Part shown: piece by piece, positions 16,624 through 21,405 of the stretch
Numbering within the stretch: the first letter of the stretch is position 1
Layout: each line of letters starts with the position of its first letter
NCBI GenBank assembly: GCA_003214525.1
Contig: QCLN01000001.1
Span: 1-64,000 of the forward strand
Direction of reading: 5' to 3'
From: Pelagibacteraceae bacterium AG-414-M23
Lineage (GTDB): Bacteria; Pseudomonadota; Alphaproteobacteria; Pelagibacterales; Pelagibacteraceae
Length of the DNA stretch: 64,000 bases
The notes under the pieces: generated by a model
The model's input: only the letters and a program-made list of their open reading frames with translations
What the model was told of the DNA's origin: nothing
Databases searched by the model: none
Position numbers and translations under genes: made by a program

Positions 16624-18054
16624 TTAGGCATTTTCATATTTTTTTTGTATAGACATAACAAATTCATTTAATTCATCTAAAAATTTTAATTTTTTTTGGT
16701 CATTTGCATTTGAATATTTTTCTCTTAAATTGTCGCACTCAAAATAAAATTCTTTACAGGTCCACCATTTTTCTTTTTTTTCACTTAAAATTCTTTTAGC
16801 TATCGCTCTTTTTACCTCATTATAAATTTCTTTAGGCAATGTTTCTGGTGATTCTTGATAAATTATTTTTTTTCCAAATCCAACCAATCTCTCATCTTCA
16901 AATTTATCAAGCATAGTTAACTTATCTTTCCAAGAAGCGCCATGCCATTTTGGAAATAAAGCTGTATCTTTATTTGGGGTGAATTTTTGATAAATGCTTT
17001 CTTCTGCCAGTATATCTTCTTGTGATTTGGTTTGCTCCTTTTCTTCTGCAATTTCTCTGAGTGCTGTAATCACTCTTTCTGAAAATTTTTCATTTTCTCT
17101 TACTAGCTTTGCTCTCTTATAGATTAATTCTTTATCCATCGCGCTATATGGTTCTGCCTTTATGCCATAACTTTCATCCAATATCATTGGGGCTTTATTT
17201 GATCTTATAGTTCTTAAGAACTTAGGTGTTTTTTTTAATTCAGACTTAATTTCATTAACTGATAAATTTAATAGAGGCTCAACATCAACTCTTAAATCTA
17301 CTGCTTGTCCCCACTGATAAACTGGGTGAACACAGTATTTTGGATGAAGAGGTGCACATAAATAAAGTCTAGATTTTCCATAAAAATATTCATTTAAAGT
17401 AATTATTTTTTCTTTTTTGAATACTGTCTCTGCATCAACTCTACTGGAAGTTTTCAAAAAACTATTCCAATTATCTTGTTGTTTACTTTTGATTAAACCT
17501 AAGACTTTTACAGTGAGCTCAGCATCAAATAAGGCTGAATGGGCGCCACCAGACTCAAATCCGTTCATTCTAGCTAACGATTCGAGCTTCATTACAGCAT
17601 TACCTTTTTCGTTAGTTTCTGTTTCTAATACTGTTGGATCTACGGCATAGGCTGCTCTAGCAATATTAAGACCATCGTTTCTTTTATTTGGTGATGCGTT
17701 AGTAATATATGGATATCTAATACCTTTAAAAAATTCTTTTCTTATCATCTCATCATCAAATCCTATGTTAGACCACCCTAAAAATATAGCGGGACTCCAC
17801 TTTTTGAATATCTTTTCAACTTCTGACAACATTTGATAATGGCTTAAGTTTGCTTTGGTCAACATATCAACGCCTGTCTTATTAACTATTAAAGCATTTG
17901 CCTGGGGAATTTCACCTTCAGGTAATCTACATCTTAAATTAAAGCGGTCTTTTTCTTTTAAGTTTTCATCAACAAGTACGCCACCAATTTCGATAATGCT
18001 ACCAAAATCAGTATTAGCATTAGAAGACTCGATATCCCAAATAACTAAATTCAT
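16624..18054 (-). CDS. sbcB: Exodeoxyribonuclease I
   Basis: LVIWDIESSNANTDFGSIIEIGGVLV, GWSNIGFDDEMIRKEFF, GGAHSALFDAELT. Confidence 0.88.
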   Translation of the reverse strand: MNLVIWDIESSNANTDFGSIIEIGGVLVDENLKEKDRFNLRCRLPEGEIPQANALIVNKTGVDMLTKANLSHYQMLSEVEKIFKKWSPAIFLGWSNIGFDDEMIRKEFFKGIRYPYITNASPNKRNDGLNIARAAYAVDPTVLETETNEKGNAVMKLESLARMNGFESGGAHSALFDAELTVKVLGLIKSKQQDNWNSFLKTSSRVDAETVFKKEKIITLNEYFYGKSRLYLCAPLHPKYCVHPVYQWGQAVDLRVDVEPLLNLSVNEIKSELKKTPKFLRTIRSNKAPMILDESYGIKAEPYSAMDKELIYKRAKLVRENEKFSERVITALREIAEEKEQTKSQEDILAEESIYQKFTPNKDTALFPKWHGASWKDKLTMLDKFEDERLVGFGKKIIYQESPETLPKEIYNEVKRAIAKRILSEKKEKWWTCKEFYFECDNLREKYSNANDQKKLKFLDELNEFVMSIQKKYENA

Positions 18055-18057
18055 ATA

Positions 18058-18738
18058 TTAATTGTTCATTTCTTTAAATTTTTTTACTCTTTCTAGAAAT
18101 AAATTTTGGTACATCAATAATTCAGATCCTTCAATTTTAAATTCTTGATAAAAATTATCCACAGTACACAATAATATTGCTCCTAAAGTAATATTTGTTT
18201 TGTAAACAACATTATGCGCTAAAGTGTATGCTCCTAATTGTAAAAAATAATCTTGAATATATTCTTCCTTTTTCAACCTGTTTGATTGCTTGAAATCAAG
18301 ACAGCATTGTTTTCCTTCGTAAATACCAATCAAATCTGCTGTTCCGCCATATTTTTCAGGATAATATAAGGCAGTTTCCATTCCATAAATTTCTTCTAAT
18401 TTTCCTTTGATGCCTTTATCTATTATTTCTTTAGCCATGTTTTTATATTGTTCATTACTTTCAAAAAAACTTTCATTAATTCTTCCTCTCAAAAAATCTT
18501 CAATATAGGAATGCATTGAAGTTCCTCTATTAGAAGCTTCTGTTTTAATTTTATTCGCTTGTTGAACACCAACGCGGTGTTTCCAATTTTCCAAAGCAGC
18601 TTTATCTTCTTCCGATTTAGTGGCTTGCAAAATAGACGTAACACTTGGCAATTTTTCTTCACCAAATAAATATTTTCTCACACCATCTTCAATAGACCTA
18701 GATGATTTTGGATAATTAAATTTATTATTCCATTTCAT
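18058..18738 (-). CDS. PD-(D/E)XK exonuclease resembling MGME1
   Basis: LPSVTSILQATKSEEDKAALENWKHRVG, RGTSMHSYIEDFL, GGTADLIGIYEGKQCCLDFKQSNR, QLGAYTLAHN. Confidence 0.75.
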   Translation of the reverse strand: MKWNNKFNYPKSSRSIEDGVRKYLFGEEKLPSVTSILQATKSEEDKAALENWKHRVGVQQANKIKTEASNRGTSMHSYIEDFLRGRINESFFESNEQYKNMAKEIIDKGIKGKLEEIYGMETALYYPEKYGGTADLIGIYEGKQCCLDFKQSNRLKKEEYIQDYFLQLGAYTLAHNVVYKTNITLGAILLCTVDNFYQEFKIEGSELLMYQNLFLERVKKFKEMNN

Positions 18739-18753
18739 GATTTTATTATTTAA

Positions 18754-20034
18754 TTATTCAAGTAAATTATCTTCGTCTATGCCTTCTAAAAAATCAGGTA
18801 GGTTTGCTTTCATAATAATTTTTGGCAAAATATTATTCATTATAGTTTTTTTATCTTCATAATTTTTCTTTCTTTGTATTATTTGATTGCTAAAACTTCT
18901 TTCATCTTTTTCAATTTGATTAAATTCAGATTTAAGATTTTTAAATGCTTTTCTATACTCTAATTTAAATTCATTGCTACTTAAAAAATCTGCTAATGGC
19001 TTTAAACTTCCGCCTCCGCTACTTTTTTCTGATTTATGAAAAAATTCTTGTAAAATTATTTTTCTTCTTAGAGAAACTGTAAGTTCTAAAAGTAAATAAT
19101 CTTCTCCACAAATAATAATTCTTCCTCCTTCTCTTTCTTGCCACAAACCATTAGATTTTTTTGGCATTGATTTGGTAAAAATAATGCCTTGGGTAGCATC
19201 AATGGATGACATATCTTTGAGTAACTTATCAACCCATTGTTCATCAAATTTTAAAACTTCTTTTCTTTCATAGAGAATTTTTCCTGTTTGATTATCTTGT
19301 TTGTCTATTACTGTTTGAATTAAATCACCACCTCTCTTTCCTTTTTTTACAGGTTCTATTTTATCATAAGGGAATTTATCTTTTAAAAAATCTTCTAATA
19401 ATTCTTCTTGGGCTTCACCCTTTTTTTCAACTGCAGTTTGGCTCGCAATATCAAAGGCTATTTTTTGTTTTTCCTTGACCCTTTTCATGTCTAGCGCATG
19501 TTCTTTTTCTTTAGTTTGTAATTTTTTTTCATAATCTTGTTTTATTTTATTTTTTTCTTTATCAGCTTTTACTCTTTCTGCTTGTGCTTCTGCTAAAGCT
19601 TCTTTTTTTGCATCTTTTTTAAGTTTTTCTTTTTCAGCTTCTAATGCTTGTTTTTTTAATTTTATTTCCTTATCAGCCTTTGCTTTTTCTGCTTGTGCTT
19701 CTGCTAAAGCTTCTTTTTTTGCATCTTTTTTAAGTTTTTCTTTTTCAGCTTCTAATGCTTGTTTTTTTAATTTTATTTCCTTATCAGCCTTTGCTTTTTC
19801 TGCTTGTGCTTCTGCTAAAGCTTCTTTTTTTGCATCTTTTTTAAGTTTTTCTTTTTCAGCTTCTAATGCTTGTTTTTTTAATTTTATTTCCTTATCAGCC
19901 TTTGCTTTTTCTGCTTGTGCTTCTGCTAAAGCTTCTTTTTTTGCTTTTTCTTTTAAGTTTTTAATCTCATGTTCATGAGCATCTTCTAAAGAAAAAACAT
20001 TTTTACATCTTGGACACTTAACTTTTTGACTCAT
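18754..20034 (-). CDS. DUF2130-like protein with N-terminal Cys-pair motif, repeat coiled coil and restriction-endonuclease-like C-domain
   Basis: KCPRCKNVF start; coiled coil of tandem 37-aa repeats; GEAQEELLEDFLKDKFPYDKIEPVKKGKRGGDLIQTV...ILYERKEVLKFDEQWVDKL. Confidence 0.75.
   Translation of the reverse strand: MSQKVKCPRCKNVFSLEDAHEHEIKNLKEKAKKEALAEAQAEKAKADKEIKLKKQALEAEKEKLKKDAKKEALAEAQAEKAKADKEIKLKKQALEAEKEKLKKDAKKEALAEAQAEKAKADKEIKLKKQALEAEKEKLKKDAKKEALAEAQAERVKADKEKNKIKQDYEKKLQTKEKEHALDMKRVKEKQKIAFDIASQTAVEKKGEAQEELLEDFLKDKFPYDKIEPVKKGKRGGDLIQTVIDKQDNQTGKILYERKEVLKFDEQWVDKLLKDMSSIDATQGIIFTKSMPKKSNGLWQEREGGRIIICGEDYLLLELTVSLRRKIILQEFFHKSEKSSGGGSLKPLADFLSSNEFKLEYRKAFKNLKSEFNQIEKDERSFSNQIIQRKKNYEDKKTIMNNILPKIIMKANLPDFLEGIDEDNLLE
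19581..19940 (-). repeat. Direct tandem repeat, 111-bp period, about 3+ copies, in frame within the DUF2130-like gene
   Basis: cttgtgcttctgctaaagcttc recurs at 19581, 19692, 19803 and 19914. Encodes KKEALAEAQAEKAKADKEIKLKKQALEAEKEKLKKDA repeats. Confidence 0.92.
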
Positions 20035-20061
20035 TCTATCTCCTTATAGTTATCATTATAT

Positions 20062-20505
20062 TTAATGTATAGTATCATTTTCATGGTCCTTCTTTTTTTC
20101 ACCTATTAATTTACCTTCTGTAGGAGCTTCATCCCACTCTTTAAACTCATGCATCCATTCTTTGTGATTATTTAATATTTCTTCAGATGTAGTTTTTAAA
20201 TAATGTCTATAAACTGGATAACTGAATTGAGATATCATTCTCTGTAAAATCCTAAAAAGAAAAATATAGAAGCAATAACCCATGTCTAAAAAGCTTCTCT
20301 TTGAAGCTTTAAGGTAATTTTCCACCAATTCTTTAGCTAAAGCATCCATTTTTTTTACTTCCATCTGTTCTGTTTGAATTTTATTACTATTTTTAGATTT
20401 ATTAACAAAGTTAATTACTTTGGACTTATCATTTTTTACAATCATAGATTTAGTTTTTTTATTTTTTTTTAATTTTTTAAAGAAATTAAGTATTTTTTTT
20501 TTCAT
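20062..20505 (-). CDS. Hypothetical protein, Lys-rich N-terminus
   Basis: 147-aa ORF with AGGTG-like RBS upstream; no family recognised. Confidence 0.55.
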   Translation of the reverse strand: MKKKILNFFKKLKKNKKTKSMIVKNDKSKVINFVNKSKNSNKIQTEQMEVKKMDALAKELVENYLKASKRSFLDMGYCFYIFLFRILQRMISQFSYPVYRHYLKTTSEEILNNHKEWMHEFKEWDEAPTEGKLIGEKKKDHENDTIH

Positions 20506-20533
20506 ATTTTAGCACCTCATAAACTTTTTATTA

Positions 20534-20681
20534 ACGAAGTACTGTCTAGATGGGAAAGAAAGAAAGGAATAACACACAAACTCCGCATCTAAACAAGTAG
20601 CTTCGTTCTAATTAAAGTTTTTTGATTTAGATGAGATTTTTTAAGAAACTAAATTTTCTGCATCTAAACAAGTAGCTTTAA
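20534..20681 (-). ncRNA. Candidate structured tandem RNA: two related hairpin units in the leader of 20062..20505
   Basis: Arms 20534-20552/20586-20606 and 20612-20633/20661-20681. Both share gcatctaaacaagtagctt (20585, 20660), and the lower stems differ compensatorily (acgaag/cttcgt vs ttaaag/ctttaa). Strand assigned from the downstream gene. Confidence 0.6.
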
Positions 20682-20727
20682 CTTAGTAAAAACACTATAT
20701 AACACTTAGTTTTTAATGTCAATAAAA

Positions 20728-21405
20728 TTATTTGGATAGTAAATTGATAAATTTTTTAATTCCTGGTTTTTTTAAAGATAATTTTGAAATCATTATGCAA
20801 GCTTGTGATTTCAAAATTTGTCCATCTTTTACAACTCTTAGATTGTTGGCTTTTAATGTTTCCCCAGTTGAAGTGATATCAGTAATTATCTCGGATGATC
20901 CAGTAAATGGGTAAACCTCGGTAGCACCTAAACTTTTAACAAGCTTAAACTGTGTAACACCTTTAGAAAATAAAAAATCTCTCGTTAGATTAGGATATTT
21001 AGTTGCAACTCTTAGTCTGCTTTTCTTGTTATCTTTGAATTCAAATGCAATTTCTTCTAGATCGGCAATAGTTTGAACATCAATCCATTCATTTGGAATT
21101 GCAACAACTAATTTGGCATGACCAAAATTATATTTTTTTTTTACTATTATTTTTTTTTGAATATTTACTTCGCTTTCTTTAAGTAAATCAAAGCCTGAAA
21201 AGCCTAAATCTAATGAATTATCACCTAATCTTTCAATTATTTCTCTAGCATGAAGATAAGTGACACTAATATTTTTGTAGCATTTAATATAGCCAAATAA
21301 ATCTCTCACACCTCTTTCAGATTGAAGTTTTAATTTGTTTTTTGAAAAAATTTTTAAAACATCTTTTCTTAATCTTCCTTTGCTAGGTATTCCAATTTTA
21401 ATCAT
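20728..21405 (-). CDS. hisG: ATP phosphoribosyltransferase, short form
   Basis: IGIPSKGRLRKDVL, DLGFSGFDLL, ITSTGETLKANNLRVV. Confidence 0.9.
   Translation of the reverse strand: MIKIGIPSKGRLRKDVLKIFSKNKLKLQSERGVRDLFGYIKCYKNISVTYLHAREIIERLGDNSLDLGFSGFDLLKESEVNIQKKIIVKKKYNFGHAKLVVAIPNEWIDVQTIADLEEIAFEFKDNKKSRLRVATKYPNLTRDFLFSKGVTQFKLVKSLGATEVYPFTGSSEIITDITSTGETLKANNLRVVKDGQILKSQACIMISKLSLKKPGIKKFINLLSK

Follow-up and report, generated by a model that had tools for sequence, protein, structure and literature searches.

A conserved, covarying hairpin upstream of SAR11 nuclease operons and its copies in pelagiphage contigs

Upstream of a nuclease operon of Pelagibacteraceae bacterium AG-414-M23 lies a tandem array of two hairpin units, the core of which is conserved, retains its pairing through covariation, holds a fixed position before the exoI or rmuC operons of related genomes, and recurs in phage contigs. 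The array was examined within a 64,000-nt stretch of this genome (contig QCLN01000001.1, positions 1 to 64,000), hereafter the window. The reading favoured here, which we hold with somewhat better than even confidence, is that the array constitutes the 5′ leader RNA of this SAR11 nuclease operon, that this leader is bistable, that its apical element is read by a factor acting in trans, and that the phage copies use or titrate that factor. The motif is undescribed, since no Rfam family or paper matching it was found, nor did the literature yield any description of a pelagiphage ncRNA. SAR11 bacteria are among the most abundant cell lineages of the ocean and have few known regulators, and no description of the control of their DNA-repair nucleases was found in the literature; the motif also offers a bait for finding the factor.

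The array is located between hisG (20728–21405, minus strand) and ORF147, and the order on the gene strand, i.e., the minus strand, is hisZ, hisG, a promoter match, unit 1, unit 2, a GAGG Shine–Dalgarno sequence, ORF147, DUF2130, the PDDEXK-like nuclease, and exonuclease I, the last four forming a nuclease operon that extends beyond ORF147 (Table 1). The original prediction had placed the repeats in the 5′ leader of ORF147, and this position was confirmed. As the array lies downstream of a predicted promoter, it would begin, on the gene strand, within a few nucleotides of the predicted transcript 5′ end. A TTGACA or TTGACT box with a spacing of 17 or 18 nt is retained 5′ of the element in most homologues, and a search of 20000–21000 for intrinsic terminators (a GC-rich stem followed by a U run) returned 0 terminator-like sites.

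Table 1. Features of the array and of the downstream operon (window positions; all on the minus strand).
Feature	Position	Strand	Basis or remark
Predicted promoter, TTGACA-17-TATAGT	20694..20722	-	11/12 sigma-70-like consensus match
Unit 1 compact hairpin	20648..20687	-	Homologues, covariation
Unit 1 P1, ACUAA/UUUAGU	20683-20687 / 20648-20653	-	
Unit 1 P2, GC/GC	20675-20676 / 20660-20661	-	
Unit 1 13-nt apical element, UACUUGUUUAGAU	20662-20674	-	
Unit 1 long alternative hairpin (5′ arm with anti-loop arm; 3′ arm ~20609-20633)	20609..20684	-	Fold; duplex z -3.3 vs dinucleotide shuffles
Unit 2 compact hairpin, AAC-GA-A-GC[UACUUGUUUAGAU]GC-G-GA-GUU	20579..20607; loop 20587-20599	-	Second-of-tandem type, possible tandem G.A pairs
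Unit 2 long alternative hairpin (3′ arm ~20533-20553)	20533..20608	-	Fold; duplex z -6.5; pair counts
Shine–Dalgarno GAGG of first ORF	20515..20518	-	Sequence
ORF147, 147 aa, first gene after the element	20062..20505	-	Without Pfam match; slot variable between species
DUF2130 protein (PF09903)	18754..20034	-	Pfam
PDDEXK-like nuclease, conserved operon member	18058..18738	-	Weak Pfam match
Exonuclease I (SbcB/ExoI) homologue	16624..18054	-	PF08411 + PF00929; PDB 4jrp/1fxx, E ~5e-16

A nuclease operon of this type (RmuC or DUF2130, PDDEXK, and ExoI) stands behind hisS-hisZ-hisG in the window (16624–20505) and in L002, L003, L005, L006, L010, and L626–L637, with a variable slot that is occupied by ORF147, ORF101, an Mrr-like protein (PF04471), or differing RmuC types and resembles a small hotspot. 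With the PADLOC model RTasSbcB, ExoI gave a match (5e-67) that suggested a retron or DRT ncRNA; this candidate was rejected, as no reverse transcriptase (PF00078) was found in the genome itself, which is 88% complete. A type III toxin–antitoxin RNA array was likewise rejected, given that ORF147 is without a Pfam match and that in most homologues a lone unit precedes exoI or rmuC. A separate perfect 13-bp inverted repeat with a 13-nt spacer lies at 20780–20818, within the 3′ end of hisG.

As the original prediction had stated, two units lie 75 nt apart, with GCATCTAAACAAGTAGCTT at 20585–20603 and 20660–20678, and a 22-nt direct repeat with the same spacing was found independently. No further copy of GCATCTAAACAAGTAGCTT occurs in the window at up to 3 mismatches (0.02 expected), and the exact 13-mer was found nowhere else in the genome beyond the two units, the weak covariance-model matches that were inspected being coding. 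Pairing of each unit with its own arm was reproduced by folding, with long hairpins of −25.9 kcal/mol (20530–20607, minus strand) and −16.1 kcal/mol (20606–20690), and the lower stems of the two units do differ as ACG/CGT and TTA/TAA. The covarying helix that had been proposed needs to be revised, since the long pairing is significant but weaker than a compact hairpin in its conserved arm (GCTACTTGTTTAGATGC on the minus strand), a conserved small structure that the first reading had missed. The tandem arrangement is real here but represents one variant, found in some species, whereas most homologues have a single unit; in L036, one operon has both, two units in tandem at its head and a lone one in front of exoI. 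A structured regulatory leader gained support from the conserved homologues, the compensatory changes, the fixed position before one operon, and the lack of an Rfam match, while the suggestion of paired sRNAs is disfavoured because the position relative to the exoI or rmuC start codons is fixed. The absence of a known riboswitch held as well: a scan of the window with Rfam 15 at gathering thresholds gave two tRNAs only, and the leader at a relaxed threshold gave only chance miRNA and rRNA matches (E 0.8–3.4).

The compact hairpin (structure A) has the core GC[UACUUGUUUAGAU]GC, in which the P2 stem is followed by a UA/AY internal loop, two further pairs, and an NGUUU (rarely NAUUU) pentaloop. 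The 13-nt apical element is not an open loop, C3–G11 and U4–A10 being paired, and follows the consensus UA-CU-NGUUU-AG-AY above a covarying stem; in the L130–L134 clade, A3–U11 replaces C3–G11 with the pairing retained. The flanking pairs covary (GC/GC, GG/CC, AG/CU, GU/AC, and AC/GU), as do the longer stems CUUGC/GCGAG, CCGAC/GUUGG, and AGC/GCU. Across 43 host and phage sequences, the two closing pairs of P2 are standard in 86 of 86 cells, with 15 two-sided changes, and P2 together with the inner pairs is standard in 172 of 172 cells, with 17 two-sided changes (G–C, A–U, C–G, and U–A) that affect three of the four pairs. The covariation score was 0.352, against 0.066 ± 0.021 in shuffles, and 0 of 500 shuffles were as high in cells paired and score. 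Such compensatory changes, which keep the pairs, point to a conserved structured RNA hairpin, although covariation by itself cannot separate an RNA from a DNA hairpin. The outer helix P1 (ACUAA/UUUAGU), seen in first and single units, is 92% paired with no two-sided change; its covariation is not significant, and its support comes mainly from individual cases (L029, L030, and L130). Second units are without P1 and have AAC-GA.../...GA-GUU instead, which, judged by eye, would permit tandem G·A pairs.

The long alternative hairpin (structure B) uses the same stretch as the compact hairpin, so that the two pairings are mutually exclusive in the core and the loop is hidden in the long form. Complementarity of the anti-loop strand beats dinucleotide shuffles (mean z −2.18, with p < 0.05 in 23 of 49 partly related host units), most strongly in second units. 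In exoI leaders, 92.5% of the cells of the long hairpin are paired and one pair shows a two-sided change (G–C to U–A, in the clade with the changed loop); in second units, 84.6% of cells are paired and three pairs show such changes. Both strands of the long hairpin co-vary in the L130–L134 clade, and the L034 and L112 groups retain structure A and hardly structure B. The conservation of both structures in many species suggests a bistable leader; the small number of compensatory pairs in the long hairpin speaks against it. The simplest translation switch, in which either structure would sequester the Shine–Dalgarno sequence, was not supported, as freeing the loop had no average effect on the accessibility of that sequence in modelled ensembles (0.53 to 0.53). 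Two further details of these leaders may be mentioned: the exoI leaders of L020, L022, L023, L054, and L057 contain an extra loop-complementary stretch, AATCTAAACAT, before the usual anti-loop arm, giving two anti-loop segments, and the long hairpins of tandem leaders bear pyrimidine-rich terminal loops (CCTTTCTTTCTTTCCC; e.g., 20553–20572, minus strand) that are perhaps a further binding site.

When the leader served as a BLAST query against 200 congeners, about 40 clear homologues were returned, the matches centring on the conserved arm. The element is carried by more than 90 genomes. The 13-nt pattern, which fixes neither the stem beneath nor the anti-loop arm, has matches in 165 of 399 genomes, chance matches inside genes included. 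At the loci that were read, intergenic matches precede exoI (MNLAIWDIESS..., 476–490 aa), rmuC, or a small ORF that is the first gene of the same nuclease operon. The last unit typically lies 60–95 nt from the start codon, non-coding matches overall being 50–170 nt before exoI, rmuC, or the operon-head small ORF. Matches elsewhere in the congeners, as seen with BLAST and a pattern of the 5′ arm only, fall within genes or have no link to conserved leaders. Such constancy of position before a single set of genes, 3′ of a predicted promoter, argues for a cis-regulatory leader. The covariance-model search that had been called for located the element, among family and order genomes, in two or three genera of one family; the inspected matches in a second family and the weak second matches were coding sequence, and a search of the class (190 genomes) gave chance-level matches only. 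Pattern scans of named genomes returned Pelagibacteraceae and one chance Clostridia record. ExoI is present in 44 of 44 genomes checked. Several sister species have the hisG-rmuC-PDDEXK-exoI operon with no recognisable element in that leader, so the control that the motif may exert would be dispensable.

The same apical element occurs in marine viral contigs. Exact scans of IMG/VR for GC- or CC-closed loops gave 59 matches, 31 of which sit on perfect stems of at least 6 bp, compared with 3.0% of matched random 13-nt loops from the same contigs; these 31 include near-identical contigs and four of coding type (L270, L277, L278, and L293), so the independent cases are fewer. In these contigs, the identical 13-nt loop is carried by perfect, unrelated stems of 6–15 bp, with at least six such stem sequences, while in the negative control, with a G–C closing pair instead of C–G in viral contigs, there was no stem above 4. 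Contigs L272, L280, and L554 are related by sequence to HTVC027P/HTVC023P, and L279 to Pelagivirus podoviruses, all phages isolated on 'Ca. Pelagibacter'; L544 gave no match. The hairpin was absent from the isolates HTVC027P, HTVC023P (both scanned in part), HTVC019P, HTVC142P, and S42-C7, blastn against phages with the short hairpin query gave chance matches, and Rfam gave none at the phage loci. In 24 of 28 contigs, the phage hairpin starts 5–14 nt past the stop codon of a small ORF, and in the contigs resembling HTVC027P or Pelagivirus, the copies precede terminase genes. No anti-loop strand was detected in the phage copies (mean z +0.44) and, therefore, the phage hairpin would be locked in state A. 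Pelagiphages probably mimic the host leader hairpin. Two observations concern the surroundings of these loci. In L292, L281, L297, L283, and L289, further paired elements (CTGATCCCTGATCC...GGATCTGGGATCAG) follow 3′ of the hairpin in the same non-coding tract, like a structured-RNA array, and HTVC027P (L506) has other perfect hairpins close to the orthologous site ahead of terminase, at about 12291 and about 12366, with the sequences CCCTGGTA[ACTCATAGAGG]TACCAGGG and TAAAGGGG[TCCCAGACTAT]CCCCTTTA.

About 11 of the small ORFs directly 5′ of the phage hairpin have the C-terminus [DE][DE][IML]PF (EEIPF, EEMPF, or EDIPF), and these ORFs fall into at least two unrelated kinds. Such a tail is found in 12 of 407 ORFs of the hairpin contigs, only one of them not beside the hairpin, and in 0 of 448 ORFs of five reference phages; it is absent in other hairpin contigs, e.g., L273, L279, and L281. 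By sequence, these phage ORFs carry the signature of the SSB C-terminal tip (SSB-Ct), in which acidic residues lead into hydrophobic-Pro-Phe as the last residues of the protein, and the host SSB ends DLDDEIPF (L625). The E. coli tip is a docking site for ExoI, among other proteins. Docking of RecO by the E. coli SSB-Ct is also described (PMC7913777). The phage proteins beside the hairpin share the tip but, unlike SSB, gave no match to SSB families, and their docking is putative. The link of both phage features, hairpin and tail, to ExoI is suggestive.

In the leader model, a single specific factor, most probably an RNA-binding protein, would act in trans and recognise the 13-nt apical element that the hairpin of each unit displays; one of the operon's own products, for instance ExoI, might serve as this factor and thereby autoregulate the operon. 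We infer that the element acts as RNA. The downstream anti-loop strand would pair with the apical stretch and hide the loop, and the leader would thus alternate between a state with the loop exposed and bindable and a state in which the long hairpin sequesters it. The stability of the nuclease mRNA, or its translation, would depend on occupancy, and a pelagiphage loop locked on a perfect stem would be consistent with phages that use or titrate this host factor. A loop common to the host nuclease leader and phages, beside SSB-tip proteins, leads to a concrete hypothesis on how pelagiphages may handle ExoI/RmuC-type nucleases. A more ambitious version, which we regard as tentative and rather doubtful, is that pelagiphages attack one host function via two mimics from one locus, i.e., a protein with an SSB tail that would occupy ExoI or another SSB partner and a locked exoI/rmuC-leader hairpin at the transcript 3′ end that would titrate the factor governing nuclease synthesis.

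Other explanations share part of this evidence. The long hairpin could be the functional unit, as a 5′-end stabiliser or an RNase III processing site of the nuclease mRNA, with the small hairpin being incidental: the long hairpins are stable and located at the predicted mRNA 5′ end, and that of unit 2 is more complementary than shuffles. Nevertheless, this would leave the near-invariant 13-nt sequence unexplained, and the covariation of P2 is independent of the long arm, which the phage hairpins do not have, thus it appears unlikely. About equally unlikely is a site recognised at the DNA level by a DNA-binding protein, whether as an operator or as a folded single strand, the latter perhaps related to packaging in phages. 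Inverted repeats fit DNA too, the neighbours are DNA nucleases, and the phage copies lie upstream of terminase; however, conservation falls on an asymmetric apical stretch, whereas the stems vary freely and the P1 spacing is variable, the opposite of a dimer operator, and the element is downstream of the predicted promoter, within the leader, with the phage copies just past stop codons.

A small conserved leader with two exclusive structures, sometimes in tandem, also recalls a metabolite-binding riboswitch of the nuclease operon. Yet no metabolic gene is controlled, the phages carry the minimal hairpin only, a 13-nt apical element is small for an aptamer, and there is no Rfam match, which makes this reading very improbable. 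Still less credible is an antisense base-pairing RNA, in which the phage loop, acting in trans, would anneal to the anti-loop strand present in the nuclease leader of the host. As the phage loop equals the host loop, it is complementary to that strand by construction, but a GC-rich closed stem would be unnecessary for this purpose and some hosts (the L034 and L112 groups) show this complementarity only weakly.

The candidates reported for 'Ca. Pelagibacter ubique' by Meyer et al. (2009) comprise the rpsB, rpsL, ffh, and SAM-V-type motifs and four minor motifs, with S2, S12, the SRP protein, methionine biosynthesis, rhtB, pntA, rnhB1/methylase, and SAR11_0635 as gene contexts, and comparison with these published structured RNAs, which the original prediction had proposed, gave no match by description (PMC2704228). 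The present element is like them in being a conserved SAR11 leader motif from comparative genomics, and is set apart from the eight motifs by contexts and structures as described, none of which stands before exoI or rmuC in that description. Among phage RNAs, those of the put/nut antitermination type are hairpins close behind promoters at the operon head, sometimes two. The array shares this placement and number but no terminator was found in the leader region, and the phage copies follow ORFs. The MS2 coat operator and the T4 RegA and gp43 operators are autoregulatory leader hairpins bound by proteins and, like the present element, have an invariant apical loop in a 5′ leader; in contrast to these operators, a second structure would here hide the loop, the loop is common to host and phages, and the bound protein is a putative one.
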